DNA of 64,000 bases, from assembly GCA_017506865.1 (NCBI GenBank), contig JAFCMP010000140.1:1-64000 (forward strand), in the 5' to 3' direction. The stretch's first letter is position 1; each line of letters starts with the position of its first letter. The translations under genes and the position numbers were made by a program. The stretch is from Tribonema minus (taxonomy: Eukaryota; Sar; Xanthophyceae; Tribonematales; Tribonemataceae). The notes below the pieces were generated by a model. The model saw nothing but the letters and a program-made list of their open reading frames with translations, did no database searches and was not told the origin of the DNA. Positions 7,067 to 53,360 of the stretch are shown in pieces.

Positions 7067-10000
7067 TCAAGTGTCGGCTGATCCTGGAGCGCTCACGCGA
7101 ACGTCCGCGGCCGGCCCCATGTCTCGAACCTTCCACTCTACCGAGTAGCCGTACTGGTACAAGTCGTCGAGGGCGCGCGCGAGCGCATCGCTGCCCTGCG
7201 CCTTGAGTTTCTGCGCGCAGGGCGAGTGGGAAGCGGGCGCGTGGAAGTGCATGAGAAGTCTTTGCGGAGAAGCAGCAGCGCAGCGCCATCGCTTGCAGTT
7301 GTTGCCATTGCTTGAAGTTGTTGAACGGCGCAGGCCAGCGACGCTAGGCGCAGCTGCAGCAGAGCCTTGGCTGCCAGGCAGATCACGGCAAGGGTTCTCT
7401 GCATGCAGGACGCGTGGGCGACAGGACGTGGCGGTTGCTCGACCGCGCGTTTGCGAGCGCAGCGTCTCGTCAGATTCAAACTGCCAGACAGTGAGCTTGC
7501 AACGCAGAAAATTGTGGAAAGGCCTCCTTTTGCCACTGACAGGGACAGCGCACCCGCCAACATGCCCTGCATGCTTACTACCATGAGACACAGGGCGAGT
7601 TGCAGGAGCTCATTGGCAATGATGCAAGGAGGTGGCGGCGCGCGAGAACAACGGGTTCAGCGCGGCTTTAAGCGCCACTGACGTCAGCAAGACCCCCACC
7701 CCCCCCCGTGCACATGTTCTGCGCAGTGCAGTTGAGCACGCTGAGAGCGCTCAGCAGTCAGTCAGCGACCGCCCTGACCGTCAGGCGCAGAAATGCACAG
7801 CGCTATGCAAAGAGATGAAGCACGTGTCGTTCACGACGAGTCTGTGCCTGTCAAGACTGACGTACTTGGGTCTTGCAAAGGAGGTGGCGACAACTGACCT
7901 CGTACTTCTGGCACAGCGCAAGCGCCATGCGGCTGTCTTCGACGGAGTCGTGCGTGCTCTCCTGTATGCGCTCCGACAGAAGGTAGTGGCTCAGGAAGCG
8001 CAGGCTTGCCTGTCGCACGCGAACGCGACAGGTGGCAGAAACAGCAGCGGGCAGCCGTGCAGTGACATTAGCGTAGGCCACGCAGCGCGACAGTGCTCGT
8101 GATTATGGACGTACAGACCGGCTTGCCGGCCAGCCGCTAAAGGACAGGACACAATATGCATAATACGCATGCAGCGCGCTGCGAACGTCATGCTGCAGCA
8201 GCCCGATGGCGGCACACCAGTGCACAAACAAGTCATTCATGGTTGGCCAGCGTGGCCGTCGCAAGATTACGTGGAAATGCACACGTGGCGATGCGCAGCT
8301 CGCTGTGGCAGCACACACACATGGTGAAAGGGCTGCCTCGCAACCACAGAGGATGCAGGCACGCATGACGACGCCGCCGTACTGAGCTGCTGCCTAAAGC
8401 GTCATACAGAAGCCACTGCAGTGCCACCAATGCCTGCCACACAGTAGCATTGTTCAGCAGATTGCTTGCCTTTCGTCGCCCCGGCAAGCTCCACATTTCC
8501 GCCGTGTCGAGCACCTGCGACGGCGGCACCACCAGGTTGATGACGCGGAGGTCCTGTCGTCGCAAGCAACAGTGCACACGCGCGCAGGCAACGATGCATG
8601 TGTCAGTTGCCGATGTCATGACGCAGTGCTACCGCTGCACGAGAGGCACTGCTAGGGCTGCACGAGGGCCAGCGCGCGCTGGGTCGTGCGCCGAACTGCA
8701 AGGCAAAGTGCAAAGCACTCTACGCAGATGAGGCATCGTGAAGGTGAGAATGATGCCGTTCGGCGTGTCGGTAACGGCGCAACAACATTGTTGCAGTTGC
8801 GAATGCGCGCCCCAGAGCGCGCGGACCAGCCTGTTGGGCTGTCTTCAACAAATGAGCACAGTCATGTAGGCTAGGGTTAGTTGGGGGTTTAGCTGACTGT
8901 AGCCCTAACCCTACTGCTAAGCCTAAGGGGGGCATGTTGTGTGGATTTAGGTGCAACACGAAATGTGAGGGATGCAAAAGGCTTTCACTGAAATCCCAAT
9001 GTCAGCTGGACTCTCATCACAAAAATGGGTTCCCCGTGCCTCGCACAACCATGCTTCTAGCCACAACAACCAGAGCCCCCGCCCCCCCCCCCCCCCCCCC
9101 CCCCGCCACTAAAAAAATCGATGTGGAGATCACGCAGGCAACTGCTCTATGCTCAAACGCTTCCAACATGCAGCAGGCGCTATCGTCACTGTCGCACGCG
9201 TATAAAAGCACAGGCGCAGTGCGCTCACATGCGCTGCACGTGACGCTGCGAGTCTGAAACACATGGCCTTTGGGGGCGCGGGGCGCTTGAGGGAGCATGA
9301 CATCTATACACCGCGCCTACCTGCATAATTCACACAGTCATCACTGCTGCGCAACACAGCCGTCGCCAACACGCGCCGTTGTGCACCTCTGCGCCACGCT
9401 CACCTCGAATAACGCCTTCCGTCTCTGCCACAAATGAATGCTAATGGAGCCGAGTCGTTCCAACTAGAACTCAGGACGCGTGTGAAACGGCGGCGTTTTT
9501 TTTTTGTGTGCTGTGAAAGATGTGCATGCCACTGAACTTTGCGCCGCTTGAAGTCATCAGACACGCTCAAACCCCAAGTCTTATAATAACTTGCACGCTT
9601 GTGAGTGAGCTTGCGGAAGCCACCGCCAGCAACGGGTTCACGCCTGCGCGCACCTCAGCGGCATGCGCGCCGCTCAACTTCAAGTGTGCGCTGCTTGAAG
9701 TTTTAAGCTCGGCAGCAGCAGCAGCGCTCACCTTGGCGAGGCCGTGTCCCTCAAACCCCTGCGTTATCTACTCGTACACTTGTGAGTGAGCTAGCAGAAA
9801 GTGACCGCCAGCAACGAGTTCACGCCTGCGCGCCCCTCGGCGGCGTACGCTCGCCGCTCGAACTTCAAGCACGCGCCGCTTGAAGTATCCAAGCTCAGCA
9901 GCAGCAGCAGCGCTCACCTTGGCGAGGCCGTGCCCGACCAGCACGCAGCCGCGGTCCACGAGGCAGCGCAGCTTGAGGTACGCGGCGCGCAGCGGCACGA

Positions 10001-11826: not shown

Positions 11827-11857
<31 letters not shown>

Positions 11858-14283
11858 CCTGCGCAAACGACGGTATGGAGAACACCGCCGGCGGCATGGC
11901 AAGCGCGGGCGGCGGCTGCTCGCAGAGTTTGGCCGGCAGGCGGCCCTCGCTCTCGTCGCGGTACAGCAGGATGCAGGGGTTCTGTGGTAGCGGCGGCGGC
12001 GCGGCGATGCTCAGGTAAGCTCAAGTGGCGACGCTCTCACACGAGTTGAACATTCAACGCGGTGAGGAGGTGTGCAGGCGCTTGGCGCAAGTGTCGTGGT
12101 ACGGGGGGAGGGGGGGGAGAGGGCCAGCGGCAGCGGCGGCGCGCAGGGCCGCGTTACGCAGGTAAGGCCAAGAGGTGAGCGCACTCACTGTTCAATGTCA
12201 TCACCTCTTCATCTGCTCAACTGCCGCCTCAGAGGCACTGCTGAGAGCGTGCGCAAATCGATGACATGACACACTCAACTGCGGCAGGCAACAGCAGGCA
12301 GAGTGGCGCAAAACCCAAGCGTGAACACGTGGCAAGACTGCGTCGCAAAAAACCACACACACATTGCTGAACTGCTGAACACCTCCGCCGCGCATGTGCG
12401 CACGCAGCAGCGCTCGACAACGCACCTTCCACGCCGGCCCAAACCCGCGCACGTCGTCCAGAAAGGTCCTCTGCGACAGCATGTCATTGAAGATGAGCCA
12501 GCCGCCATCGCCCGCGGCATCCGCCTGCATACGCCCACAGGCGCGTAACGCCAAAGAGCCATTGAAGAGTGCAGCTTGAAGTGTGCATGGCGGGGGGGGC
12601 GGGGGTTGCCGATGACGCTTTCATCGCTGCGGCATCATGACGACACCGTAGCGAGCAATGCAGCACAGCAGTAACCAGCCCATTTCCCATGCTCCCTTCG
12701 CCGCATACCTGGCTGCTACCCCCAGCGTCGTCGCCGCCACCAGCGGCAGCGGGGTCGCGCATGTGCAGCACCAGCATCTATACTTCACCAGCATCCGTAT
12801 ACTTCCAGTTGAGGTATTACTGATATATGCCATACTTACATACCTGGCTGCTACCCTCCGCGTCGCCGCCGCCATCGGCCGCGGGGTCGCGCACGTGCAG
12901 CACCAGCATCTATATACTTCACCAGCATCTACATACTTATAAAAGTATATATTTAAAGCTGAACTAGCATGTAAAGACTATGCCTACATACCTGGCTGCT
13001 ACCCTCCGCGTCGCCGCTGCCAGCGGCCGCGGGGTCGCGCACGTGCAGCACCAGGTGCCCCTGCTGCATGCCCTCCGTCTCCGCGGCGCATCATCCATAT
13101 ACCTAAGTTGAAGTAGTACTGATGACACCATGCCTGCATACCTGGCTACCCTTCGTGATGCCACAGCATCCACATACTTCAAGTGAAGTATATGTATATA
13201 TACCATGCCTACATACCTGGCTGCTACCCTCCGCGTCGCCGCTGCCAGCGGCCGCGGGGTCGCGCACGTGCAGCACCAGCATTCATCAGCATCAATATAC
13301 TTCAAGTTGAAGTAGTACTGATAATACGATGCCTACATACCTGGCTGCTACTCTCAGCGTCGTCGCCGCCACCAGCGGCCGTGGAGTCGCGCACGTGCAG
13401 CACCAGGTGCCCCTGCGGCGCGCCCTCCGCCTCCGCGGCGCCGCCGCGCGGCGGCGCCACGTGGCTGATGACGGCAAACAGCTTGTAGCGCGTCCCCGCC
13501 GCAGTGGCATCTGCTGCCACGGCTGTCGCGTCGTCTGCGCGCCAGCCAGTGAGAGAGAGCAAGTGACGCGTACTCAGCGCTGCGCACACGTGAACTGAGC
13601 AGCTGCTGCGGGTCACCGAAGGAGGAGGGCTGCGCTGCAAGCCACAGTCGCTGCAGACTGACCATAACCCTATCCCTGAGGGTTGTCGGGAGCTGCATGA
13701 ATGCGCGCGCCGCTTACTTACAGCTACTGTAGTCATCCTGGTAGCAGGGCTTCTGACAGAGGGCCACGAGATGAGACCACAGAGGGGTGCATTCACAACA
13801 GCGTTTGAAAGCTTGCGGCACTTGCTCCCGACTTTTGGCCAGTTAAGGTGGCAGATGTGGCTGCTTCCCCTTCCCCCCACACTCCCCTGTGTGCTGACCC
13901 GCTCTAGCGCACTCAAGCCACAACGGATGCAACGTGCTCAATCCACACAGCGCGCCTCCGCACTAAGGCAAAACAGCACATACTTCGACGTATATACATG
14001 CCACCACTCCACTTGCTGCCCCACCTCCCCGTTTCCCGCAATACCCTACTTTGAAGCATGTACGAAACACAGGCGGCGGCACCCCTCGACGACACGCACT
14101 CAAAGCATCACGATGACATAATGACTGTGCATGTGTAAACCTGGCGTGCACGCACGTGCGTCCACGTGGCACGCCATCCGCAGCAGTGCCCCGCGCACCT
14201 GTATACCGCCACTCGCTGCCGCCGCCCATCAACGGGTCCACGCGCTCTCCCACCACCACCTTCGCAGCCGGCGCCGCCGCTGC

Positions 14284-14337
<54 letters not shown>

Positions 14338-17300
14338 AGGCTCCGCTTGAGCGCCATTGGGCGGCTCATCGGCCCCTGCCTGAGGCCCGCTCGGCGCCTG
14401 CACCGCCGCCGCCGGAAGCCGTACTTCAACTTCCTCCGGCAGCCAGTGACCCCCCAGTTCGTTGACGCCGCGGAAGGGGGACGCGGCCTTCATGCCCGAC
14501 TTGACGCCGTCGGGGTAGAGCAGCGGCGTGCAGTGCAGCGCCAGCATGGCGGGCAGGGTGGTCGGCGTGCTGAGGCGTGATGCAAGGGGGAGAGGGGAAG
14601 GGGGGGGGGGGGGGGGGGGGGGATGACGACGCTGTGTGGTGGCGCCACATGGCACGCTTCCGCTGCGACACGCTTTCGCTGCATAATTGCATGGCAGCCG
14701 AGCAGCAGGAGGGAGGGAGCGAGGAGCGAAGTCGCACGTCGTCGCAGCGCAGCACGGCGCGCACGGCGCAGCGGCGGGGGGCGGCGGCGCCCCCGGACCA
14801 CAGGGCGGCGGCAGCACAGTGCAGCGCGGCGTGCGGCACGCACGCATCTCAGGCGCATGTCAGAGCGCACAGGCGCCTGCGCAGCGACTGCATACAGAGA
14901 AGCGCTGCTCAGAGGAACATGAAGCGCGCAGCTTGATGGCGTTGCGCCAACCGGCGCGACTTGCGGGTCAGGTTTGGGGGTACGGAGGGGGGGCACATGG
15001 GGGGTGCGCTGGCGTGGCGCCACTGACGGGCGCGCGACGCAAAGGCAGCAGCGCTCACCGGCTCTGCTGGAGGGGCGCGTATTTGTTGGCTTGGGGGTCC
15101 CACGCCTGCGCGCGCGTCTTGCGGCACAGGCTGCGCAGCAGCACCTCGCGGAATGCGCCGTTGCCGCCGCCGCTGCCGCCAGCGGTGTTGGTGCTGGCAG
15201 CGCCGGTGCCCTGCGCCGCAAGGCAGGTCGGGGATCAGCGTCAGAAGCGGTGGGATTCATCAAGGAGCACAATACAGCCTGATTGCACCCATTGCTGCTG
15301 TTTGCGCTGCTGCTGCTGCTGCTGCTGTTGCTGGCGCCGCTGCTGCTGGTGCTGACACCCTGTTCTACCGCGTGCGAAGCGAGCGCGTACTAGAGGTGGA
15401 CAAGATCCGCGGATACCTACCGCGTGCCACGCACACGCACACGCAGTTTGCGAGTCACTCAAGGGGCAGTCGTGATCAAGCGCACGCATGCGCCTGTTGG
15501 TGACGCGCATGTTCGGGGCTGGGGTCAGGGCTAGCAGCGAGGCGCAGCCACGCTGTACGCTTGTGGCAAATGGCTGGCTGTGCTGTTGTGGCATGCCGCG
15601 CTGTGGTGCAACATCTGCTGTCATGTACCACTCCTCCAAATGCCTTGATGAACAGGCACTATGTACTTCAAAATATCTGGCCGGAAATCCCACGGAGGGC
15701 AGGCAAGTGCGCGCAGGCGACAGCATTGCCGTTGCCGTTGCCGCCGCTGCTTACAGCAGTTATGGTAGGTATCCATGGCGCAGTACGCAATCATGAGTAG
15801 CCGCACCTGTGCCGCTGCCGCTGCCACCTCTAAGTCCGCCGGCAGCACGAGCTGCTCAATGAAGACTGCTACCTCAGCATCAAAGCAGCCTCTACGTGTG
15901 TGACTCAGGCAAACACGCATCAGTGACTCTGCGCGTGCGACTGCGCCGCCGCCGCCGTCTTTGCGTTCGACGGCGGCGGCGTGAGCTCCTGTTCGAAGGC
16001 TGCCTTGCCATACATGCTGCTCTGAGTACATGCTGAGGACCGAAGACAGAAGCATCTGCGAGTGGTGCTGAGCACCTGCAAGTGGTACTGAGGCGGGTGT
16101 GCGTCAGCAAGCGCACCTGTGCCGCCTCCGCGTCCGGCGGCAACGCGAGCTCCTCAATGAAGACGGCGTTGCCATGCACGTGCATGCTGCTCTGTGTACT
16201 TGGGAGGACAAAAGTAGCATCTGCATGCATGACTTGGGTAGGTATGCATCAGTAAGCGCGCACCTGTGCCGCCTCCGCGTCCGGCGGCGGCGCAAGCTCC
16301 TCTGTGAACACGGCGTTATCATACACGTACATGCTGCTCTGAGCACTTGGGACAAAAATAGAGTAGCATCTGCGTGTTTTACGTAGATGGGTATGCATCA
16401 GCCAGCGCGCACCTGTGCCGCCGCCGCTGCCGCCGCCGCCGTCTCTGCGGCGTGAGCTCCTCTCTATGAAGATGGCATTGCCATGCACGTGCATGCTGCT
16501 CTGTGTACTTGGGAGGACAAAGGCAGCATCTGCATGTGTTACACGAGGTAGGTATGAAGGAGCAAGCGCGCACCTGTGCCGCCGCCCACTCCGCGTCTGG
16601 CGGCGGCGCAAGCTCCTCTATGAAGACGGCATTGCCATGCACGTGCTGCTCCGTTTTTTTGTAAGAGGACGAAAGTGGCGTCTGCATGAGTTACGTAGGT
16701 AGGCATGCATCAACAAGCGCACCTGTGCCGCCGTTGTCTCTGCATCTGGCGGCGGCGCGAGCTCCTCTATGAAGACGCGGGTCACGCGGTCCTCGCCCAA
16801 ACCGCGCACCTCCGCGGCGCCCTGCAGCACAAAGAGAGAGAGAGACGCGAACGCGGGCAGCGGCGGAGCGGCGCGTGAGGAAGAAGCCTCGTACTTCTAC
16901 TAAGTAGGGACGTGCGCGCAGCGGCTGTTGCGGCCCGCCGTGCAGAGCGCTGCCCCCCAGCGCGGATGGCGCAGAGCGACGCGCAAGAGGGCGGCAGCGC
17001 GCGGCGGAGCGGCGCGTGAGGAAGGAGCCTCGTGCCAGCGACGCGCAGCGCGTTGCTGCTGCTGCGGGGGCTGCGCGCGCGCGCAGACCGTGGCCACCTG
17101 CTCACACGCGGCGCGGCGTCCGTGGCTATGCTGCGGCGAAGCGCCCTGATCGCCACACATCCCCAACAACGGCGAAGTCCAGTGTACAAAGGTTTTATGG
17201 ATATGAGGGACAGGTGCGCTTTGAGGGAACGCGTACACGAGGCGGCGCGCAGCGCTCAGCGCCGCATCAAGATGACGGCTGCGCTGCGGCGCGTGCTGCG

Positions 17301-20300: not shown

Positions 20301-23300
20301 TTAGGAGCGGCGTGGGGTTGGTGTTGCGCGTCAGCAACGTGTGGGTTTGTCACCGTCGCGGCACCAGAAGCGCCTTCACAAGTGGCACACACGCGCAATG
20401 AACGCTGCACAACTTCATTGGACCAGTTCTTGACTGTGATCCACAACTTCAAGTCTACTGCTCCGACACTCGCTTCCGCCGCAACGGCGACGTGCTTCCA
20501 CGCAGACCTGACGACAGGCTGCACATCGCGTCGCAGGAGGGCGCGCCGCAGAGACAAGGACGCCACCGTACCATGCACTGTGCGCGATGCCAACACGACA
20601 CGCCCAGACCCCACTGCACGCTCCCTCTACTCAGCGATGCACACTCCCTCACGGCCGTCGAGCCGCGCTTTTAACATGCATGGCGCGGCGGCGGCGGCGG
20701 CGCTCCAACCAGCGTCATCTGCAGCCGCTGGCGCGGCGGCGGCGCTCCGATCGCCGTCATCTGCAGCCACTCCTGTGAGGCCGCAATGCGCTTCAAGAAT
20801 TGCCCTGAATGCAGCCTGTACACGGCGCAACACACACCCCCGAGGCCGCCATGCGCTTCAAAAATTGCCCTGAATGCAGCCTGTTAACGGCGGCAGCATC
20901 GCTCAAAGTGTCTTCAAACGGCAGCAGCGCTTGACCGCGTGCGCTCACCTCGAGTGCGCCGCGGGGTTGAACTGCTCCCACAGCGCCGCGGCGCAGATGG
21001 GCGCGAGGTGGTACAGCAGCTGCAGCACCGCGTTGGTGTAGGTGTTGGGCAAGTTGCCCTGCGCGTGCACGCGCGCGGGGGAGGGGCGGCGGGGAGCGGG
21101 GGGGCATGGTCGCTGAGCACTGAGGTGCCAGGGGATATGTCAACGAACGCGCGGCGTTTGCGCTGCGCGAGCGAAGTGCAGCGGCATGCGCACGACGCGC
21201 AGCGCGCTTGTGCGCACGAGGCGTGCACACACGTCTCAGCCAGCTCGAACTTCGCGGAGAGCGTGTTTGCACATGGCGGTTCAAGCGTGCGAGTTCGGGC
21301 TTCGCGGCTGCAGCGGAGCTCGAGCGAACATGGCATGCGAATGAATGTGCTTGCAGGCGAGCGCCATTTCTTCATGAATCGCCAATTTTTGCACACGATA
21401 ACAAGGTGTTTATAGAGGACACTTCTCTCTGCCGCAGTCGACGTGCTGTGGTAAGGGCGGCTTTGTAGGTCGTGTAGAAAAGCTGCTGCCACGCTCTCAC
21501 GCACCTCCAGGCCCGAGTACTCTGTGGCGTTGTACGCGCTGAGGTCCATGGTGTCAAAGCCAGCGCGGCTCAGCCTCATCTGCGTCAGCCTGCGAGGCAC
21601 GCGGCGGCCGCAGCAGTGATGCGCGAGGAGGAAACACCGCCGTTGTTGAGCACGAGAGCGCGCGAGCAAAGACTGGTCGACCGACGCGAGCACGGGCGCC
21701 GCACGCGTTGCGCCGGTCAAGCAAATGTGACGCGCGTGGTCCATATATAGCGCGCTGGCGCCATGGAGCACTCAATGCGCGGCGTGCGCACACTTCAAGA
21801 AGAGAAGTGACGCGCCGCACGAATTCGCGCCACTCGTCCGCTGCACCTGCACCACCGACATCACGCCGAGCGCGCCCCCCTGCCAGCCGTGGCGTCACGC
21901 CGAGGGCGCACCCGGCAGCGGTTGCGCGGCGCGCAGTGGCGGTTCACGGGTGCAGCGCGGTGCGCATCCGCAGAATTGGCACACTCTCCGCGTGTGGCTA
22001 ATCGCTGCCGTACGCGCTCCTGCATCGCAATGGCTGCTGTTTGCCCGCCAGTCCCGGCGCGGCGACGCTCCGCAGCTGCGAGCACTGCTGCACACCGGAA
22101 ACCTGAAAACCTGCGCCGCGGCCGCCCGCAGGCGCTCGGCACGATCTATCTCAGCGCGCGCCTTGTTGCACCCGACCTCAGGCATGAACAGTGGTAACAC
22201 TACTGACATCACAGTGGTAACACTACTGACATGCGGCATGGAGCTTGCAGCCCAGCCGCAGACCGCTGCGGCCGCGCGCACGAGCCCTCAGCGCAGACCT
22301 GAGCGCTGCTGCCGCAGATATTCACACCTGTAGCGGAACGGCACGCCGTCCACCTGCTGGTCACGCGCGGGCGCCGCGGCCTTCTGTGCGCTGCCGCCGC
22401 CGCCGCGCTTGCCGCCGCCGCGCGACGACGACGGCGTCCCGGTGGGCCTGCTGCGCGGGTCGCTCTCCTCGTACAGCGCGCGCCCCTTGCCATAGACGAG
22501 GCTATTGGGGGGGAAGCCGGGGTTGGGGATGACCCCCAGGAACCCTGACTGCGGTGGTGGTGAGAGTGGGGGCGCAGGCGCGGGGTGGGGGGGGGGGGGG
22601 AGGGGGCGGACGGACGCGGCTGAGTGCGTGTGCCAACCACACGAGACATCCGACAGGCAGAAAGGGCGGGTGGGTCGGGACCGACCCGCCAAATGGAGCA
22701 TAATCGCACGCGTGGACAAGAAACATAGCAAGTGCGTCCTTCCAGTCCGCGCACGTGTCCTCGTCGCAGATTTCCTGGCGGGGGGGCGAGGGGGCTTAGA
22801 TCACAATACGAAGTGCAGCAACTTTGGCGCGTGGCACGCTGCGACTGGCGCTTTGGTGGGAACAGCAAGATCCTAGTGATGCACTTGGCGGTCCCTGCTA
22901 TGTGCTGTAGTTGAGCCTGACCTGAGACGGTTGTTGTTGTGATGCACCACGCACACGCCTTCTCGAGTCAGCTCAAGTCTGCGATCAAGATCATGTCGTT
23001 ACAGCAGACCTGCACGCCACCCCCGCCCTGTGCAGCAAACCATCACCAGCGATCATACGCAGAGAATAGAATCATCGTTGCCACTTCCTGATTGCCATGG
23101 TGTGCACGCAACACAATCGTGCACGCAGACGCCATTGCCATCCAATCTCAACTTCAGACTTCAACAGTCAGCGCCATAGCGCGTGTGGCACGTCACCTCA
23201 GTCATGTCGGCGGCCAGGGGGGCATCGACGGCGCGCGCGGGCGTGTCGACCACCAAACTTCAACATCAAACCTCAACAGTAAGCGCGCGGCGTCACTTCC

Positions 23301-26300
23301 GTCATGTCGGCCAGCGGCGAGGCCTCGAGGGCGTGCGCCCGCGGTCGGCGCCTTGCCCACTAAACCTCTTATGATGTCACAATCGGTGTTGCTTTGCGTG
23401 TTGCGCCATGTGCGTCACGTCAACGAGCAGACAGGCCTTGATGGCGCGCGGCGGCGGCGGCAGCCGTGCATATGCCTTACCCAACAACGTCTAGATAATA
23501 TTAATAAGCGCTGCTTGCGTCACCTCCGTCTTGTCAGCAAGAACGCTTCGACCACCAAACCTCAACATTAACCTAAACATCAGCAAGCGAGCGCGCGGTG
23601 CGTCACCTCCGTCATGTCGGCGAGCAGCGACGCCTTGATGGCGCGCGGCGGCGGGCGCCGCGCGACGGCGTCCGCGAGCCATGGCGTGTGCGCGAACGAT
23701 GACGCCAGCGGCCCGCTCGCGTAGAAGTGGCTCGCGCGCGGCCGCACCACATACTTGCCTGTGCGCATGTAGGACGCAAGCGAGCGGTCGTGTGCGGAGA
23801 TGAGTGAGAGAGATACATGTGCACTGCCGGAAGGCGCGCCACACGCCTAAGCACGCTGTGATCCGGGGCTGCGAGCCGCGCAGGCGCGATCACGGCTTCA
23901 GACGCACGGCCGGGCGGGGCAGCACAAGGCGCGTGAGCGGTGTCGCGGGGCCGGAAGGCGACGACGCATGGCGTGCCGTGCATGACGATGCGTACAGCAT
24001 TCCGGGCTGTCAGCGGCGCAGGCGCGATTGCGGCTTCAGGCGGACGGCCGGGCGGCAGCGCGTGCGCGCGGTTTGCAGTGCATTACGGACAAGAGCGGCG
24101 TGCGCAGACGGAGTGTGGCGCGCTGTGCTGCTGCTGCTGCCCGGTTGCGATGCGGGCGCTCGGGGGGTCAGAGAGCGCGCCGTTGCCGTCAGTGACATGG
24201 CTGCGGGCGGCGCATGGGGAAAGCACGTGACGCGACGCGGCTGCGGCGGGGAGTGTGGAGGCAGGTAGGCATGTTTGCGGGTACGCGCCACAGCAGCGCT
24301 CTGCGTTGTCAATGGCGTCTGCCGCGACGACTGCGGGCGCGCAACGCGCTGCTGGGCATGCGCAGAAGGCAACTTTGGTCAGACAATGCAGGGGTCAAGG
24401 CAAACGCTGAGTGCCTGCCGTTCGCGTCATCGGGCGCAATCATCAGCCAAAGAGGGAAGGCGGAGCGCTGCGCGTGGTCACGCGCTGGCCTCCGAAGCGG
24501 CGGGATTTCACGCAGGTTACACGGGGGCTCCAGTCACCTGCCGCAGTGGAGCTGCGCGCGCTTGGTATGCGCATCAAACGGCGCTGACAACTATATGCAA
24601 ACATCAAGGCTGTGCTGCATGCGTGCCTGATGCGTGGTGCAGCGCACTGAATGCGTGTGCGGGCCCCGTGCACTGCTGCACGCCACTCTGTGCTGCCAGC
24701 ACCACCGCTCAACACGTCAACGGTGCTGGTTCGCCGAAAAGGCGAGCGGCCGCTGCTGCTCATTATCATCACCGCAACCATGCACCGGCCCTGCCCCCCC
24801 CCTCCCACGTCGTGCGCAGTAGCAAAGGGCTCCAAGCACGTACACAGACACCCCAACCCCAACCCTAGCAACTTGTGACCTCACGCATGCACCAAGCCTG
24901 TATGTGCCGCTGCTCTGAAGCGTCTGTCCCCACCGCCACACCAGCAGTGCTCAGCAACAACGCAGGCGCGGATGAGGCTCCCTCACCGGCAATGGGCCCC
25001 GGGTCCTGCGGGTGTATCGGCAGCGGCGGCGGCGGCGGCAGGAACGGCGGCACGTGTGTGGGCCGCGAGTTCTCGTTGACGCAGCACGCGCCCTCGTCCT
25101 GCGGCGGCGGCGGCGGCGGCAGCAGCGGCGCGCGGCGGAGGACGTGAGAGCGCTGGTGACGCGTGGCGCCGGTTCCGCGCGTGCGGACAGGAGGCGTGCA
25201 CGAGCTGTTCGCTGCGCGGGCAGAGCGGGCGTCGTTGCGCGCTGCTGCTGCAGTCACATGCCGCTGCGCGCGCTTAGGATTGGGGTTAGAAGGACTGTAC
25301 CTGGCAGCAGCGCCACGCTGCGCGACGCCGCCGCCGCCCTCCGCGCTGACACTAGACCTGTGTCCATCTGTTCAAGCTCCTGAGTACGCACCATTGTATT
25401 CATGTGCACTGCACACAGCTGATAGCACGCACGTCAGCGACGGCTGCAGCACCGCATCAGATGCGCCGCAAGTCGTCGCCGCGCACCACCGCTTCCGCAC
25501 GCTTCCTCCTCCCGTGCCCATTGACTCGCCCCGGTTTGCTCACGCCTGGAGAGAACATGCTGAAAATTTCAATACTTGAAGTGCTCCTGCTGTCACGCAC
25601 CTCAGGCAGAATCCGCGAAAGCTGCAGCACCGCGCCGGACGCGCCGCCGACGGCCAAGAGCGCGGCGCTGCACGACACCACACGCACTCCGCTGACACCA
25701 CGCACTCTCCCTGCACAACGACTTGCTTGCACCCCGGCGCACGCTCACGCTCGCAAGGAACACGCCGAATACTGCTACTGCCACGCACCTCAGGCAGCAT
25801 CCGCGACAGCTGCAGCACCGCGCCAGCTGCATATTTCGCTCACGCCTGGAGAGAAGACGCTGAATACTTCAATACTTCAAGTACTACTGCTGCCGCGCAC
25901 CTCAGGCAGCATCCGCGACAGCTGCAGCACCGCGCCGGACGCGCCGCCAACAGCCAGCAGCGCGCCGCTGGGCGATGACGCCACGGCCGTCGCTGCCTCC
26001 GGCACGACGCTCCTCTCGTCCGCCATCTGGTAGTGCTCGTGCCAGATGCCACCGCCGCCTGCGCAGCGCGGCGCGCAAAGCGCAGGAACATGATGGTTAA
26101 AGTCGGATGCCAGAATTCATGTCGTCATTTGACGTGCACATGACGGCAGCGATGGGCAGGGGCAAAGTCGGCGAAGCAAAGACGGGCGCCGGACGGCAGT
26201 GCCGGTGTGCTGCGCCCGCGCTCGCGCGACCGGCATGCTCGCGTATCGCGGCGAGCAGAGGGAGGCGAGAGCGCTACTGCTGTGACGCCGCGCTGTGGCA

Positions 26301-29300
26301 GTCGGGTATTTGGCAAATCAGTGCGTGTAATGGCGCCGCGCAGCGCAGCGACGCACGGCAGCGCTCAGCGCGACACCCCGCGGAAGTCGGGCAGAAGTGA
26401 ACCTGCAGGCTTGTGTCGCCGGTGCGCGCGGGGATACGTGGCAGTGCTCGGCAGACCTTGTAGAGGTGCCGCCGCTTGCGGCGGCGCTCTACCGACGCGT
26501 GCGTACTGCAGTGACGCGACGGCCACGCGGCCGCAAGCCAGAAGACACTCAGGCATACGCGCCGCGGAAGCAGTACACGCGAGGCGGCTCCATGCAGCGC
26601 TTCTCTGATCGGCGCGGCGCCACCCGGGCCTCGTGTGCAGCGCAGCGTAACCTTTTCGTGAACGCATGCGATCAGACGAGTACTTGCGCAAGTGCTTGCA
26701 TGGCGCGCCCGCGTGCGTCGACCGTGCACGCGCTGGCGTCGACAATGAGGGGCACAGCTCACACGAGGCCGCCGCCCGCGCCAGCTGGCGCCTTGCGCCA
26801 AGAACACGCGCTCACGCCCAGGATTTCATCCTCCTGTCACATCACTCAAATTGTGCGCCCGCTGAACTGCAGTGTCGGCCTTGCGCGATGGCCACCGACA
26901 CTCCATGCGTCCCGCCGCACTGGTCAGACAGCGGCAACGGTCGTACCGACGCAGCGGCCGCCAATCGCTGCGCGCACCACGGCACTCCCGTACCACTGTG
27001 CACCACGAGATCAGCAACGCCCCCCTGCCCTCCCCCCCTGGATGACAAGTCACCAACTTCAACTTAGTCGCTGCGGACGCCCCCCACCTGCGTCGCCAAA
27101 CGGGTCGTGCGCCACCAGCAGCTCCCCCGACATCATGGCGCACGCGAGCGCGTCGCCGCCGCCGCCGCCGAACCCGTCCTCCGCCGCCGCCGCGGCGCCG
27201 CCGCCCGGCACGAACGCCAGTGCCACCGGCATAGGCGTGGACGCCGCGTGCGCGCACTGGAGCGCGCGCGTGCGCCCGATCATTCTGGTGCGAACAACGC
27301 GGGCGGGCGGGCCGCGCGGCGATGTGAGAAGCGCATGGCGCACGGCGCGGGTGCAGAATCGCGAGGAGGGTGGCGGAGGCGGCGGCGGCGGCGGTGGTGG
27401 CGGCACGTGCATCCGACCGATCGGCTCGTGCTGCATGACATACATGTATGCTTGTTGTTGAGTGTTTCGGGTCCCTTGCGCTAGCATGGCCGGCAAGCGA
27501 GACAGTGACATAATTACACATCTTGTCGTGCAGATCAGTGCGGATGGCGGACGCGCACCACACTACTCCTGCAGCGCGCGCTCCGTACACCCACTCACCG
27601 CAGCGCACACGCAACGCCTCTCCACGAACCTCTTGGAATCTTTTTCTAGCATGCCACAGCACTCACCGTATGTCCATGACGCGGACGACGGAGTCCGGGC
27701 TCATGACGCTGGGCGCCTTCTTGTCGTACGGGTTGACGCTCACGGCGCGCTGCCCCACGGTCGCGAGGCGCAGGCCGCCGTCCGCGCAGGACGCCGCCAG
27801 CGCGACGACGGGCCCCGTGTGCGCCTCCACGCGGCCCTCGACGCGGCGGCTGCGCGTCGTGCCAATCAGGTTCAAAAGCGCTTCTTTTTAGACATGCACC
27901 CCTTTTTTTAGAGGTGTTTGAAGTTTTTTCAAGTATGATCTTTCAGGGGATGCGAAAGGCGCGACGGGCCCCGTGTGCGCCGCCACGCGCCCCTCGACGC
28001 GGCGGCTGCACGTCAGCGCACACACTTGGCGCGGCGGGAGGGCAGCGGCGCGCGTCATACGTGCGCCGAGGGCACGAGGCGTAGCGGTGCTTCGTTGCTC
28101 AGATGGTGTGTGCGCAGGCCGGCCGAGCGGCGCGGCGGCGGACAGCGCGGTGCGAAAGGCGCGACGCGCCCCGTGTGCGCCTCCACGCGCCCCTCCACGT
28201 GGCGGCTGCGCAGTGTGCCAATCAAGTGCAAGATCACTTCTTGGCATAGATGGGCTTTCAGAGGGTGCACATGGACAAGACTTGCGTCAACTTCCCAAAC
28301 TTCCAGTTGAAAGCAAGTATTGACAGTTTTCCTCGCCCTTTGAGGCATATTTGAGACGAGCTTGCACGAGGCGGAACGGCGCTTCGTCGCTCACGTGCTG
28401 CGTACGCAGGCCGGCTGGCCGCGCGGCGCGGCGGCGCACAGCGCGGTGCGAAAGGTGCGACGACGGGCTCCGTGTGCGCCTCCACGCGCCCCTCTACGCA
28501 GCAACTGCGCGTCGTTTATCACACGTGCGCGGGTGCAGCGGGACGGCAGCGATGACGTGCGTCAGCCTCGCAGCGCAGGCGCGCAGCACAGAGCTCCACC
28601 GAGCGTCGAGCTCAAGCAGCCATTCCACGCAGCCGCAGCTACTAGCCCTACCCCTAGAACGTCACGCACAGGAGCAAACTTCTACTTGAAGTACGAGAGC
28701 GGCGGCGTCCGACGCTACCGCGCGCACGCATGCCATGGGGCGCGACACGGTGTGGCTCAGATGGCATGTACACAGATGGGCCGGGCGGCGCGGCACCGGC
28801 AGAGAGCGCCGTACGAAAGGTGCTCAACTCAACGCTCAGCGCGCGCCTGCGTCGACCGCGCATCGTCTGCATCGAGCACACGCACGCATGCAGCCGTCCT
28901 CGCCGGCGACATCATACGTGAAGTTCACAGACACGGCCTGAAGTCCGCTTGAAGTACACATACGGTACGCATCGGCGTTCACATGTGTATGGTCGCAAAC
29001 AGCCATCCTTGCTGCCAAAGGTGCAACTGGAGTTCATGCACACAATCTGCAGTCCACTCACAGTACACGCACAGTACACTTTGAATTTCACCTGCTCATG
29101 ACCGCGTCGAACAGCCGGTCTCGCCGGCGAAGTTGCAATTGGAGTGCGCACACACGATCTGAAGTCCACTCACAGTACACACAGAGTACACATCAGCGTG
29201 CGCCTGCTTATGGCCGTATCAAACAGCCGCGCTCGTGCCGAAGTCGTATCTTGAGTTCATGCACACGATCTGAAGTCCACTCAGAGTACAAGAACAGTAC

Positions 29301-31255: not shown

Positions 31256-31286
<31 letters not shown>

Positions 31287-31884: not shown

Positions 31885-33824
31885 ATGAGGGTCGTGCCCG
31901 TGCCCGTGTTAAGTGACAACTATGCCTACCTCCTGATCAACGATCAGAAGGAGGCGTGTGCGGTGGATCCAGCAGACGCAGCGAAGGTGTTGGAAGCTGC
32001 GCAACAGGAGGGAGTTACAATCACAAAGGTAAGCGCGATGGTATCTCAGCACGACGCGTCTACTGCAATCAGAACTTTGGCAGCACAGCACTTTGTCGTT
32101 GGCCATGCCCTGCTCACAAGGCATTACAAGGTCTGCAACGCCAAAGATTTCACTGAAAACATAGAAGAGCTCCACAGTCGTATCTAATGCACGTCATGCA
32201 CAGAGCAGCAGCTGATGCAGCTGCTGTGCCACTCCATTCTTCGACACCGCGTGCAAAACCAGCCAATGCTGATACTTCGAAGTATAATTTCCACTTTTAC
32301 AGCATCTAGATATGCTCGCAGACACCAAGCCACCTCACACCTCCGCCTGGCTGCAGAATGTGTTTGTATATGCACTACTGGCTATTTCGCGCCCTGATCG
32401 GGTCAGTGTGGTGTCGAGTGATTTCACGCCCTGACCAAGATTTAGCGGAAACTACATTATCCATAGCATGGGTGACACATGGGAATGCGCTCGAGGCACG
32501 GCGGTCACGCGCCGCCTTCGTCCGTCCGTGCGCGCGCGCAGGTGCTGACCACCCACAAGCACAGCGACCACGCCGGAGGCAACGACCAGATGGCGCAGCT
32601 CGTGCCGGGCGTCGAGATCGTCGGCGGCGCGCTCGACAGCGTCGCCGCGTGCACGGCGCCCGTCAACCACGGCGACACCGTCGCGTTCACAGGCATGACC
32701 ATAAAGTGCATACATACGCCGGGGCACACTGTCGGGCACATCTGCTACCACGTCACGGAGCGCGGCCAGGGGGTGCGTGCCGCCCGCCTCGACCTGAAAA
32801 GCCAGCTATGCATGAGTTCCGAGCATCAGCAGATGGCGAAAACGCACGCATCGGAACGGGCTCGTCGTAGCTAAGCACTGCGGTTGACGGTCAGAGGTGG
32901 TGTGGTCCTCTCAGTCTTGGCGGGAGGTCGCTGGTTGCGGGTGCTGGGTGGGGGAGGGGCGGGGACTCGCATGACCATGAGTACCTGGATGCAGAGCAAT
33001 CGGTGCTCTGCGCAGATTTAGGGTTAGGGTTAGGGTTAGACTGCGTCTTCGCCGGTTGCGTCCTCATCACATGCTGAGCACTGCTTCTTCCCCCCCCCCC
33101 CCGCCCCCCGCGCGCTCTCTCTTTGCAGGACGACGGCTGCGTCTTCACGGGCGACGTCCTCATCATCATATGCTGAGCACTGCTTCTAAACGCCATCCCC
33201 CCCCCCCCCCCCCCCCTCCTCCCCCCCTTTTTGCAGGACGACGGCCGCGTCTTCACGGGCGACGTCCTCTTCATCATATGCTGAGCACTTCTTCTAAACG
33301 CCCCCCCCCCCCCCCCCCCGCTTTTTGCAGGACGACGGCTGCGTCTTCACGGGCGACGTCCTCTTCATCATATGCTGAGCACTGCTTTTAAACGCCCCCC
33401 CCCCCCCCCCCCCTTTTTGCAGGACGAAGGCTGCGTCTTCACGGGCGACGTCCTCTTCGTCGGCGGCGCCGGCAAGTTCTTCGAGGGCACCAGCGCCGAC
33501 ATGGAGCTGTCGCTGTACATGCGCCTCGCGTGCCTCCCCCCGCGCACGCGCGTCTGGTGCGGCCACGAGTACACGCTCTCCAACTACGAGTTCGCGCTCG
33601 CGGTCGACGCCGGCAACGCGGAGCTCGCCGCCGCTGCCGCGGAGGCGCAGCGGCAGCGGCGCGACGGCGCGCCCACGGTGCCGTCGACCATCGGCCGCGA
33701 GCTCGCGACGAACCCGTTCATGCGCGCGCACACGGCGGCGGTGCGCGCCGCCGTCGGCGCGGGCCGCGGCGACGGCGTCGCGGCGACGCTGCAGCGCGTG
33801 CGCGACGCCAAGGACCGCTTCTGA
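31885..33824 (+). CDS. GLO2: Glyoxalase II (hydroxyacylglutathione hydrolase)
   Basis: Three exons, 31885-32028, 32542-32772 and 33423-33824, all joined in phase 0, give 258 residues, the usual length of the family. The enzyme hydrolyses S-lactoylglutathione to lactate and glutathione in methylglyoxal detoxification. The beta-lactamase-fold metal ligands are visible: THKHSDH at the start of exon 2 (the THxHxDH motif), HTPGHTVGH, FTGDVLF and WCGHEY. The C-terminal substrate-binding part has VPSTIG...NPFMR. There is no clear targeting peptide, so a cytosolic location is likely. Exon 2 starts with GTG directly after the acceptor AG. Intron 2 contains the acceptor array described separately. Intron 1 contains a relic of the retroelement tail (near 32385). 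Confidence 0.95.
33017..33040. repeat. Interstitial telomere repeat (glyoxalase II intron 2)
   Basis: Three perfect TTAGGG units are followed by TTAGA. This is the cleanest telomere-type block in the window and sits just upstream of the acceptor array. Confidence 0.75.
33039..33422 (+). repeat. Splice-acceptor array of glyoxalase II exon 3
   Basis: Pyrimidine tract + TTTGCAG + the first 36 bases of exon 3 (GACGACGGCTGCGTCTTCAC and on to GACGTCCTC) occur three extra times, with decoy exon starts at 33129, 33237 and 33331 and a decayed copy near 33042. The true exon starts at 33423. Spacing is 92-108 bases. Each decoy then reads ATCATATGCTGAGC, which puts a stop in frame, and runs into a C-run that serves as the pyrimidine tract of the next copy. 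Decoys have GACGACGGC where the real exon has GACGAAGGC. Confidence 0.92.
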
Positions 33825-39030: not shown

Positions 39031-39771
39031 TGCGACGTGTTCCTCCGCAGTGTGCAGCAGCTGCTGATGCCAGCAGCCGCACCATTATCAGCAACATGCA
39101 TGGATTTTGGTGGCGGTGCGCTTGGAGAAGTTTTGCCAGCCGAACACAGTGCAGTGCACACAATGGCGCGTCGCCTGTTGCAGAGATTCAGACTACGAGC
39201 ACGTGCGTACATATAGTATGCGTGTCAGTCGAGGTGTTGAAGTTCATGTGTAATACATCTGCCATTGACGGCATGCAAGAAATGAATGGTGGCGCCAATA
39301 AGCAAACGCGAGTTGACGATGCGACAGTGTTGTGGTGAGTAAGCAGTGGCAAAACGGAGAAGCACAGTACAGGTTGCGTGACGCGAAAGCGACGGTGACG
39401 GTGAACATTGCAGTCTGTATACCACCGGCTGCGCAGGCATCACAGGTTGCGCACTTCGCCCAATGCGCACCCACTGATCTACAGGGCTCAAGCAGCAGAT
39501 CGACTTGCACAACAGGGCAGGGTGGCGGCCTGATGGTGAGGTCCACTGGCCTCAACAGAGGATGCCTGCGGCACGCCTGCATGCCCAGTTTTGATGGAGT
39601 AGCCATCGGAGCACGCGGCAAGGTTCATAACCGTGGTGCGCATGCTGAACATGACTACAGAGAGTATAGCTCACACTGGCAGTCATGCAGCATGCGCCGC
39701 ATCGGCCACTTCTCTCCTCGATGCTGCCGCGCCGCGAGTGTTGCAGCAACGTGCCTGCGCGTGCACACGAC

Positions 39772-39810
<39 letters not shown>

Positions 39811-48761: not shown

Positions 48762-48780
48762 AGTGCTTGCAGGTCGTTGA

Positions 48781-49035: not shown

Positions 49036-49430
49036 GTTTCGCATGCATGTCTCAACAGGAAACCGCCATGAGCGGCACGCTTTTCAGCTGCTGGAGTTTG
49101 CGCGCACATTCAAAACATTACAACCTGATGCTTCGCGCATTGGTTTCAGCTTTGGCTGTGCATAGCAATCCTTTGTGGATCCCATGTTGAGCACTGATTG
49201 CGCGTGTTGGTATTCTTTTGTTGCAGACGTGAGTGCAGACGTGACTACGCATGCAACACGTGGCTCGGCTCGCACCACGCACGCGCACTGCCCCTGAGGA
49301 GGAAGGGATTCCAAGCTTTATCCGAAATAGCGCGATTATCGGGAGTGTAACTGAAAACTTATGCTGTGTGTTTCTGATGATGCATACTCGCGACACCTCG
49401 CCAGTAGCAACATCCGAGTTTCGATCCGCA

Positions 49431-52400
49431 ATGCCGCCATCACCTTCTTTCAGCCCACGCGGCTTTCGCACGCCATCGTGCCTCCTCATTTTCCTTCTGC
49501 TGACGCTGGGCTCCCTCGGTGCCCATGCTTTCCGTCTGGGCTGTCGCAGGGCGCCTGAGGCGACTGCTGCGCCTGCCCCAGTACCTGCTGCTCAGGTGCC
49601 GACAGTGACGAAATACTGCACAGGGTTCTACTGGAGCGTCTGTCGCCCTGTCACCGAAGCGAGGTGAGCAAAGAAGGGCCGCGTTGTGGGGTGTTCACAT
49701 TGCGCATGCACACAAACAGCGAGACAGTGGCCACTCACAAATGGCCTGGCAGCTGCTTGGAAGTCTCCAGATGAGCTTGTCGAGGGCTGTACGGACCGAT
49801 GCAGCCTAGTCTGCTCATTTGCGTGCGTTATCGTGGCACACCGCTTTGGCGCAAGTTGGTTGGCAACAGCAATACTTTGAAGTATGATCAAGCACCCCAC
49901 ATGGAGCTACTCACTCACCCTGGTCAGCGTGTTCGGCTTTGTTGCTTCTGCTGCAGCGCCACTGCGCCCAATGCTGCCAAAGCCACTTCGGCAGTGCGCA
50001 TCGCCGCGCGTGGCACCGCTCCCTTCACTCCTGCCTCCGCCTCCACTACCACCACCACTACCGCTTCTGCCACCGCTTCCGCCGATGCTTCGGCCAGCGG
50101 TTCCGCCAGCACTTCTGCCATCGGTGCCGCTGCCGCCAATGACAAGCCCTGCAAGCTCAAGCGCATGATTCGAGCCCACGCTTGGTTCATCTTCGCCATG
50201 TGCCTGTCAGCACTGGCCGCGCTCCTGCTGTTCATAGCAAAGGATGAGCTGGCAGAGAACCAGAGAAACCGCCCCGTACAGGTAGGTTGAGCATCAAAGC
50301 CAGAGTTAAACGACCATGTGCACGCGGTCACTGGGTGCATGCATGAATTCGTGCACTCGCAAGCCCCATTGCAGGTCGCTCTCTTGAAGAGAATAATGCA
50401 ATGTGCTGATGCAGCGACGTCATTGCTCATCATGCTGCTGCAAGCGTGCACAGCCCTTGTGCTTACGCCCTGTCGTTTCCTCAACTGCCAGGCCAATGTC
50501 AACGCTCCACAAGTGAAGCGCGCCACCTGGCACCGGCTGAGACAGCTGCCACGCGCAGCTTGCGCACGCATCCGAAGCACTTCCGCCAATCTGGCGCACC
50601 GTTTCAGAGCTGCCGAGCACTGTGACGAAGGAGAGCCCGCAAAAGGGCCAACAGAGCTTGAGCTAGCAGACTACATCGAGGTGCGTTGTGCGTTTCCATG
50701 TCGTGTTGTCATGTACTTGTATCTTGTGAAGCTTTGTTGCCAAGCTGATGGCAGTGCTCGCTGCATGCACGAAACCGCCGCTTCTGCAAGGGTCTTGCAG
50801 GCGCGCTTCATTTCTGCACGAGCAGTGCAGACTCCTGCGCTCACATGACACTGGGAGTAGACCCACGTGAGGTGCCACTGTCACCAGGCTCCTTGTAGAC
50901 ACCGCCGCCCCTGCTTGGTTGCAGCGTTGTGTCCTACCCTCTGCGACTGAATCTTGTGCCTGACAGCGCACACCAGATGCACTTCCACTAGAGTTGCAAC
51001 ACGGCCCATGCCGCTGCTGCGTTACGCATGCCCGCCGCCGCAGCAGCACGCTCCCGGCTCTTCTGAACCCCAGATCGTGCCGGAGCTCAACGCTGACGTC
51101 ACTGAACTTGCTCTGACTCTTCTAGACGTACCAACTGTGCCCGCCCCCCGAACTGACGCCCCCCCCTCCTCCTCACGCACGCCCTCTCACGCCGCGACGC
51201 GCGCGCTCAGATGCGCGTCGGCACGCCCGGCAGGAAAGCCGCGGCGGCGCTCCTCGCGCGCGCAGACGCCCACTGCCGCGGCGTCGAGCGCGCGCTGTGG
51301 CAGCGCGCGCACGCCGCGGAGCTCGCCAAGCGCCGCGCCAGCTTCGGCTACGTCATCTGGCGCGCGCTGATGCACAGCAACTGCTGCGACGCCGCGACCG
51401 AGGCGCTGGAGCGCGGCGCGCCGCGGTGGCCGCTGGTGGAGTACAGCCGCGCCGTGCGCAGGTGAGCGGCGGCGTTGCACTGTCACTGAAGTTGATGTTG
51501 AAGTAGAGTGTACTCTGTCAAGGTTATTGAAGTTTGTTGCGTGTGGTGAAGTGCGCCGCGGCGGCCGCTGGTGGCCTACGGTACAGCCGCGCCGTGCGCA
51601 GGTGAGGCGGCGGCAAATACCTTGGTTTAAGTTTCATGTTGAAGCTCGTATAAACATCGTGATGAAGGTAGTGAAGTGTGTTGCGTGGTGAAGTGTGATG
51701 CGGTGGCCGCAGGTGGCCTACACCCGCGCCGTGCGCAGGTGAGCGGCGGCGCACGTTACTGTGGTGGAAGTTCGTGTTGCATGAAGTGCGCTGTTGAGGT
51801 TAGTGAAGCACACAGTGAAGTGCGCCGCGGTGGCCGCTGGTGCCTACGGCCGCGCCGTGCGCAGGTGAGGCGGTGACGTTGCACTGTAGTTAGAGGTAAA
51901 CTTGCATTACTCTTTGGAAGTTATGACGCGTTGCGGTGCCTACACCCGCGCCGTGCGCAGGTACGGCGACGGCATTGCACTTTAATTGCAGTTGATGTTG
52001 CAGTAGAACGACGTGGTATATTAAAAAGTTAGTGAAGCGCGTGGTGTGGTAAAGTGCATCGCGATAGCCGCTGGTGACCCACCGCCGCATTGTGCACAAA
52101 TGACAAGATCGCGGCGTTGTTTGCGCTGACATTGATGTGGATGGGCGTGTTGTGTTCAAGTGTGCGTAGTAGGTCGCGCTTAGGATGCTGCTGCGGGGAT
52201 GCATTCTCGCTGGCATGAAGCTGAAATTACATTCAACTTGACTGCACAGCTGGTACTGTAGGACGTTGTCATATGACTGATGACAACTTGGCTTCAGAAG
52301 GGTCCATCAAGCTCCTATTCCCCCACGGCTGCGTAATCTCTCTGCACATTGCACAGAAAGATAACGGTCTGCAATTGCAGATTCCTGCACCGCCAATACA

Positions 52401-53360
52401 TGAAGCGACTCACTTGGCCTGCAGCTGTCTCTGTACACGCCCGCACTGCACGGGCCAACCTAACCCTGACACTAACCCTAACCCTAACGCTAGGCCAGAG
52501 GTGTGACCACTCCTACATATCGGCTACAGAGGCAACAAAGCTCTTGCGTCAACTACCTTCCATTGCTGCTGCTGCTGCTGCCCCTGGTGATGCTCAGGAA
52601 CGCCGCCGCGGCGCTGCGCGCTGCGTGGCTCGGCGCGCTCTCCGAGACCACTGCCGTCTACGCGACCACGTCCGTGCCCATCGGCGCCGCCGCCGCGGAG
52701 GCCCTCGGCGTATTCAACGCCAAGGTAGACGAGATCGTAGCGCTGCTGTGCAAACGTGACCGCGACGACGACGACAGCGCATACGCCGCCGCCGCCGCCG
52801 CGCTCTGGGACGCGGCGCGCCGCGCCGACGGCGGCGCGCGCGCGGACGTCTGCTCTGCATACGCGCAGCGCGGCGCGCGGCCGCTGCGCAGCGGGCGCCA
52901 CATCCGCGCGGCGGCGCTCGCGCACCCGCGCGCCGCCGCCGCCGCCGCAATCGACCCCGCGTACTGTTACGACGACGCCGGCGTCGGCGCGGCGCGCGCG
53001 CGCGACGCGCGCATGGCGTGGATAGACGCGCTCGCCGCCGCCGCCGTGCCGGCCGTCGTGGCGGCGGATGCCGCGCAGATCGCCGCCGCGGTGGCCTCGG
53101 TGGACGGCAACGTGGGCATCCGCTGCGACTTCGGCAGCGGCGGCGGCGGCAGCGCACGCGCGGGCAATGATGGCGGCGGTGGCGGCGGCGGCGGCGACGA
53201 CGGCGACGGCGGCGAAGACGGTGGCGACGACTTCTACTGCCCTATTGCTGCGGAGATTTGCGGTGAACTAGACGAAGCCGCCATCATAGTTTGTGACGTC
53301 GATCCTGCCGCCGCCGGCTGGGAGGGCGCCGCGAGCAGCGAGGTCTCCCCGATAGCATGA
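49431..53360 (+). CDS. Tandem membrane-protein family, paralogue A
   Basis: Five exons, 49431-49663, 49957-50281, 50492-50680, 51211-51461 and 52598-53360, give 586 residues in a continuous frame. Order: signal peptide (CLLIFLLLTLGSLGAHA, cleavage near 33), short extracellular part ending with the family motif YCTGFYWSVCRPV at the end of exon 1, Thr/Ser/Ala-rich stem, membrane helix (about 153-172, FIFAMCLSALAALLLF), a basic stretch, a helical segment with ADAHCRGVERALW, then a long Ala-rich helical C-terminus with ARMAWIDALAAAAV and an acidic Gly/Asp-rich tail. Paralogues B and C share the intron positions and phases (phase 2 after the Cys motif, phase 0 before the helical exon, phase 2 before the last exon). 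A has one extra intron. The family is unknown to me; a surface or endomembrane protein is inferred. Intron 4 carries a donor array. Confidence 0.62.
51426..52105 (+). repeat. Splice-donor array of paralogue A exon 4 (four clear extra copies)
   Basis: The exon end GCCGCTGGT...AGCCGCGCCGTGCGCAG|GTGAG (true donor 51461) recurs with its donor near 51601, 51739, 51865 and 51960, and in decayed form near 52060-52105. Spacing is about 95-140 bases. All four clear copies keep CGCGCCGTGCGCAG followed by GT. The spacers share the beginning of the intron (GCGGCGG, TTGCACTGT) and AAGTTGATGTTGAAGTAGA-like sequence. Confidence 0.9.
52457..52492. repeat. Interstitial telomere-like repeat (paralogue A intron 4)
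   Basis: Consecutive ACTAACCCTAACCCTAACG units, a degenerate CCCTAA run, lie about 100 bases before the acceptor of exon 5. Confidence 0.7.

Follow-up and report, generated by a model that had tools for sequence, protein, structure and literature searches.

Tandem arrays of exon-intron borders in the introns of Tribonema minus: spread, donor excess and possible origin

In the genome of the xanthophyte Tribonema minus, introns were found to carry tandem arrays in which the exon-intron border itself is repeated. The arrays are spread through the genome, run head to tail, lose their GT and AG at a neutral rate and, at donors, exceed the level obtained from uniform duplication with selection. The analysis concerned a 64-kb window (positions 1 to 64,000 of contig JAFCMP010000140.1 of assembly GCA_017506865.1, numbered here as contig C140 of a 158-Mb, 554-contig genome) and samples taken elsewhere in the genome. 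A first-pass annotation of the window had described border arrays in three genes, PAN2, glyoxalase II (GLX2) and a membrane-family paralogue A, and all three are present. In a 5' array, the unit consists of an exon end (mostly 20-100 nucleotides, nt), the donor and intron sequence, and the copies lie downstream inside the intron; in a 3' array, it consists of the intron end, the AG and the exon start, and the copies lie upstream of the exon. Border-crossing tandem duplications have previously been described as single events able to create introns. Here, about one-quarter of the sampled donor borders are touched, above the level simulated for uniform mutation with selection. If the cause is mutational, it would be the status of exon end in the living cell (transcription, splicing or exon chromatin) that makes the DNA duplicate, and this would be a route to intron growth.

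Tandem arrays were called by self-alignment with E values up to 1e-6. The sample comprised the window, 20 arbitrarily placed (non-random) 10-kb stretches and eight chaperonin loci, approximately 1/500 of the genome. Exons were called by a codon-model gene finder with the homology-defined chaperonin exons as its training set, which yielded 141 confident exons in the window and the 20 stretches; exons beyond the chaperonin, kinesin and tRNA-synthetase genes are gene-finder predictions. Inner copies mis-called as exons were taken out before the coverage profiles of 154 donors and 155 acceptors were drawn. The distance-binned coverage, the edge densities per 80 nt, the donor-acceptor match test and the count of introns with arrays at both ends were based on 108 introns, and a set of 106 was obtained by removing two introns ending in pseudo-exon calls. 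The duplication and indel rates of all simulations were chosen, not fitted.

The arrays are not confined to the contig of the window, as they were also found in the arbitrary stretches and in chaperonin, kinesin and tRNA-synthetase genes. The 20 arbitrary stretches (200 kb) contained 68 arrays, which covered approximately 13% of the bases. In the window and these stretches, a border copy was found for 34 of the 134 donors and for 18 of the 128 acceptors, compared to 5.8% and 5.5%, respectively, of noncoding positions covered likewise. When the eight chaperonin loci were included, 37 of the 154 used donors (24%) had a downstream border copy, compared to approximately 5.7% of noncoding positions. 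Of the 106 introns, 28 carried a border copy at one or both ends. Arrays at both ends were seen in 6/108 introns, compared to approximately 2.4 expected by chance (24 donor and 11 acceptor cases), and in 5/106 without the pseudo-exon introns; examples are the window intron 29314-27849 on the minus strand, the introns 1178-3484 and 6726-7792 of locus L036, and one in L041, which lies outside the count. Whole-genome Pfam searches also returned partial exon copies lying downstream with the exon end or upstream with the exon start. In the protein-level tables, which were classed by eye for kinesin, chaperonin, synthetase and HSP70 genes, such partial copies appeared in chaperonin genes on contigs C5, C51 (twice) and C135, in kinesin genes on C511 and C246, and in a tRNA-synthetase gene on C445. 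Inspection of the DNA of C511, C246 and C445 bore out all three cases, and the synthetase gene proved to hold a 5' and a 3' array within one intron. Overlapping Pfam rows on C4 and C527 were not classable, and those on C1 and C79 look like repeated domains.

A concentration at borders was also seen without predicted exons. With the exons set by homology in nine chaperonin-family loci, 26 of the 44 arrays had one end inside an exon; in 5000 random placements of the 44 arrays, 13.5 +/- 2.9 fell at borders and none (0/5000) reached 26. The array load was uneven among the chaperonin genes. All arrays of L036 (8/8) lay at borders, and no array was found in the 6.4 kb of L031; L029, L035 and L036 together account for 19 of the 26 border arrays.

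Uniform duplication followed by purifying selection was simulated for 400 loci with the same detection. It gave 14.5% at donors, 15% at acceptors and 11.8% in the interior, and lifted the border only 1.2- to 1.5-fold. The real coverage was 26% at the donor, approximately 15% at +30 to +150 and 8% at +240 across the 154 donors. Binned by distance in the 108 introns, it was approximately 0.2 at donors and 0.13 between 60 and 150 nt; beyond 300 nt, the bins gave 0-0.07 (mostly 0.04-0.05). The left edges of the arrays had a density per 80 nt of 0.231 in the 80 nt of exon before the donor and of 0.019 in the 80 nt of intron after it, compared to 0.098 and 0.055, respectively, in the simulation. Under like-for-like counting in the 106 introns, the final 160 nt of exon held 26 edges and the initial 320 nt of intron 7, versus 69 and 93 in the simulation (p 2e-4, odds ratio 5.0). 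When the 26 chaperonin introns were taken by themselves, the two counts were 8 and 2 (p 0.04, odds ratio 5.4). Among arrays with identity of at least 85%, 19 were at borders and 5 in the interior, compared to 61 and 133 in the simulation. Since the border share rises among these high-identity, young arrays, the excess is not due to the preservation of old copies on the exon side. Coverage was seen at 14 of 565 strong donor-like sites other than exon ends (2.5%) and at 454 of 22138 other GTs (2.1%); both figures were counted outside border-touching arrays, which makes them comparable with each other and, to a lesser degree, with the 24% found for used donors. The absence of an excess at donor-like sites other than exon ends indicates that arrays are not drawn to the GT motif as such. 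Donors are thus anchored, with an excess over uniform duplication and selection of about five-fold in odds. At the 155 acceptors, coverage was approximately 15% at the border and stayed almost level over the adjoining 190 nt or so of intron, so that acceptors have a near-border zone without an excess at the border itself. The anchoring on true splice sites that had been claimed for the window was supported; at acceptors, the border itself is not enriched over the neighbouring intron sequence.

Within the window, 18 tandem arrays were found, nine of which contain a splice border: six PAN2 donors, one PAN2 acceptor, one GLX2 acceptor and one paralogue A donor. Seven of the remaining nine are interior, intergenic or unassigned. 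The other two, 48154-48500 in a low-complexity coding region and 38231-38907 in a retroelement fragment, touch predicted exon ends and were left out of the border count. As to retroelements, positions 1435-5668 hold a long reverse-transcriptase-like reading frame, and a fragment at 38611-39084 on the opposite strand has the same C-terminal sequence; we take the former to be a non-LTR-like retroelement and the latter its truncated copy.

The PAN2 arrays all lie on the minus strand, and those at donors 13340, 16722, 23606, 25900 and 29314 and at acceptor 27849 had in part gone unnamed in the first-pass annotation. The 5' array at 9589..9935 has two copies with a period of approximately 182-186 nt at donor 9917 (exon 10112-9918). 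The array at 12704..13441 belongs to donor 13340 (exon 13534-13341) and has intronic copies at +124, +349 and +497. At 15822..16777, donor 16722 is followed by copies at +149, +310, +459 and +606 (period approximately 147 nt) and, by eye, by further weaker copies beyond +606. The arrays at 23246..23661 (donor 23606, predicted exon 23758-23607) and 25535..25970 (donor 25900, exon 26058-25901) have copies at +197, +310 and +410, and at +112 and +300, respectively. The intron 29314-27849, which has arrays at both ends, carries a 5' array at 28891..29341 (donor 29314, exon 29468-29315; copies at +111 and +223, with additional weaker ones by eye) and a 3' array at 27802..28551, in which the acceptor of the exon starting at 27849 has upstream copies at approximately -156, -356 and -655. 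The identity of PAN2 was indicated by one match in PDB (E 7e-5) and a sub-threshold Pfam match, and Pfam searches with five other PAN2 reading frames gave no match; its other exons are named from sequence motifs and the gene finder. Near the 3' end of PAN2, positions 7222-7392 have 19 other matches in the genome (69-84% identity over approximately 55-170 bases) and are a dispersed short repeat.

On the plus strand, the GLX2 3' array at 33041..33461 precedes the exon starting at 33423, with copies at -92, -186 and -294 (period approximately 94 nt). Each of the three upstream copies comprises a branch-like region, a C-tract, the AG and approximately 36 nt of exon, and a partial, degenerate fourth copy is also present. 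The name glyoxalase II was given by the first-pass annotation and is consistent with a Lactamase_B match. The paralogue A 5' array at 51418..52088, also on the plus strand, follows donor 51462 (exon 51211-51461), with copies at approximately +140, +277, +403 and +499 and, by eye, a weak further copy near 52096. By eye, 49400-53360, 56300-58500 and 60150-62170 are three related-looking genes in a row, and the reading frame 57134-57526 in this row gave no Pfam match.

Mismatch between source and copy was 0.094 at the first, 0.081 at the second and 0.167 at the third codon position, and reached 0.195 in the intron part. For neutral copies of a constrained source, values of mu, mu, approximately 2mu and 2mu are expected in this order, and the closest of three settings of a neutral hotspot simulation gave 0.089, 0.084, 0.151 and 0.138. 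Among the 67 donor copies, GT was retained in 56, and among the 35 acceptor copies, AG was retained in 28, which matches the neutral expectation at approximately 9% change per base; the source-copy mismatch at GT was 8/88 bases. Between copies, the mismatch at GT was lower (3/80 cells), with many of the pairs coming from one array. Since GT and AG are kept only at the neutral rate, the sequences give no sign of a decoy function, and the earlier proposal that the copies act as decoy or alternative splice sites seems not to be borne out. Neither was the proposed decay of copies with distance, as if they were pushed inward in order. The mean Spearman coefficient between distance and divergence was -0.08 with mixed signs in 12 arrays with at least three copies, among which is one pseudo-exon end, that of the PAN2 array at 16.7 kb; examples of single arrays are +1.0 (L012), +0.87 (GLX2) and -0.87 (PAN2, donor 13340). 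The true site does lie exon-proximal, as had been described. However, this is no evidence for a direction of growth, since selection suffices: a copy on the other side of the true site would enter the mRNA. That the arrays lengthen introns was supported. Copying of a snippet consisting of the exon end and donor only was considered and rejected, because several cases, on inspection, resemble tandem copies with a diverged or insert-bearing intron part.

Near self-matches were direct in 346 cases and inverted in 6, and a planted inverted repeat was detected as a control; direct orientation is what break-induced small tandem duplication is expected to give. The exon part had a median of 44 nt in a median period of 158 nt (28 donors), and the median periods of border and interior arrays were 157 and 96 nt, respectively (p 1e-4). 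On balance, we lean towards local head-to-tail duplication that is favoured at real donor exon ends and followed by mostly neutral change. Such duplication would be frequent, with units typically of about 100-200 base pairs (bp) and a preference for donor exon ends. A unit reaching from approximately 30-70 nt inside the exon into the intron would be copied adjacent to itself; the outermost, original border would stay in use, and the copy would turn into intron with the mRNA unaltered. Duplicates that cross a border would survive since correct mRNA is still produced from the outer site, and it is presumably this outermost site that is used in RNA. Repeated events would build arrays and lengthen the intron, and the copies would afterwards change at a roughly neutral rate, with constraint remaining on the true exon and splice site. 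The donor excess would thus be mutational rather than selective. At the molecular level, borders may suffer staggered breaks or nicks, followed by fill-in and end-joining, and candidate marks of the border are transcription, R-loops, splicing factors or exon chromatin. We put forward more tentatively, as a possibility of lower probability, that a transcription- or splicing-coupled duplication recognises exon ends and re-copies the exon end together with its splice site, with introns growing from their borders and copies perhaps serving as templates.

Several results weigh against duplication favoured at donor ends with neutral change thereafter. At the acceptor border, there was no edge excess (13 and 18 edges versus 69 and 92 in the simulation, p 1.0; in the 26 chaperonin introns alone, 4 and 5, p 1.0), and an earlier edge test confined to the chaperonin introns did not reach significance (p 0.13). 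HSP70 exons, inspected by eye at 80 places, showed no protein-level border copies. The source-copy mismatch of the intron part, 0.195, is above the simulated 0.09-0.14. Furthermore, the copy-copy mismatch was 0.11 in exon-derived and 0.22 in intron-derived parts, with the same sign in 17 of 19 arrays (one of the 19 being a pseudo-exon end); donor-hotspot neutral simulations in three settings gave 0.12-0.185 and 0.14-0.18, respectively, with signs about even. The exon-derived part of the copies is thus homogenised or conserved by something. In some arrays, the copies have common changes absent from the source, which suggests copying between copies. Base composition was rejected as the cause of the slower divergence of the exon part, since every base class was lower.

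The border may also not be the origin of the events. If whole exons were prone to duplication and exon-internal events were lethal, only the spliceable, border-crossing survivors would be visible. This would account for border arrays at both exon ends, for the lack of exon-internal arrays in the chaperonin loci (0/44) and for the lack of excess at donor-like sites other than exon ends. However, it predicts a deep reach into the exon, and the exon part made up at most half of the unit in 22 of 28 cases (p 0.002); selection against long exon copies could mimic such a short exon part. The higher frequency at donors than at acceptors is not explained by it alone, and we consider it unlikely. We give less credence to uniform duplication in which border arrays are simply tolerated and, owing to the unchanging exon side of their source, can be recognised for longer. 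The abundance of short tandem arrays in the arbitrary stretches agrees with it, it yields a border bump of 1.2-1.5 when simulated, and the acceptor data fit; for donors, it is already disfavoured by the five-fold excess of edges in odds and by the rise of the border share with identity, and as a whole it appears unlikely.

A function of the intronic copies in the tuning of splicing, be it as decoy, as backup or as dual-specific (AG|GT) sites, would fit the exon-derived parts being more alike than neutral simulations give, and many intronic splice-site matches are reported as usable in the excerpt of PMC10809524. Against this stand the retention of GT and AG at just the neutral level, the periods divisible by three at the chance rate (11/35) and the source-copy mismatches also at codon positions 1 and 2, which make such a function, as far as conservation can tell, very improbable. 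Still more remote is the idea that the arrays are remains of introns born by tandem duplication of AGGT-bearing exon segments. The mechanism is known, and the excerpt of PMC4974935 offers a border-crossing example in potato. It would leave the exon tail and intron head matching the intron tail and next exon head, a sign that was not found in the 108 introns beyond four pairs in 2/108, both ending in pseudo-exon calls. In addition, the GLX2 3' array includes the branch-like region and C-tract. We therefore regard this origin as scarcely credible.

Some other sequence features were recorded. Interstitial TTAGGG repeats occur at 28 places in the window, arbitrary stretches and chaperonin loci, including 19301, 19696, 33026 and 52481 in the window and 3482 in L014. 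As a mark of break repair they were rejected: 8 of the 28 lay within 100 nt of array edges versus 23.5% expected, and no link was seen. In 264 kb (the window and L009-L028), ACTTGAAGT or its complement was found 50 times, often in introns by eye, and CTTGAAG 144 times; a rough base-composition estimate gives approximately 1 and 23, respectively, far below the observed counts. The light-harvesting genes G000:C79:1260591-1261277 and C1:1236836-1237498 have consecutive antenna-domain matches, and in PDB, L038 matched best to large LHCI chains (828-1048 amino acids) of entry 9vfj. Light-harvesting genes of this kind mark the organism as a photosynthetic alga.

Among the matches listed, which cover open-licence literature only, no report of genome-wide splice-border arrays was found. 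Introners belong to a single dispersed family, each copy of which forms an entire intron. The arrays resemble them as a lineage-specific process acting on introns genome-wide, and differ in that the array units examined consist of the gene's own exon end and intron (for introner elements, see the excerpt of PMC4457414). In polyubiquitin, the excerpt of PMC10809524 reports the use of dual-specific splice sites. The likeness lies in splice-site-like sequences repeated inside tandem repeats; however, use is reported there, whereas here conservation would lend it no support. According to the excerpt of PMC8355091, small tandem duplications arise from breaks with 3' overhangs that are filled in by CST-Pol alpha-primase and joined. 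As described there, these duplications are likewise direct, measure tens of bp and need no pre-existing repeat, but they occurred at induced breaks in mouse and human cells and were not tied to splice borders. The excerpt of PMC4974935 describes a single duplication across an intron-exon boundary that created a new intron in potato RdRp, and refers to fission yeast, in which a 24-bp AGGT exon segment was duplicated multiple times. The potato duplication, as given there, is also head to tail, and its duplicate consists of an intron tail and an exon head like the 3' arrays here; the difference is that it was one intron-creating event, whereas in T. minus no trace of intron birth was seen and multi-copy arrays stand at approximately one-quarter of the sampled donors.

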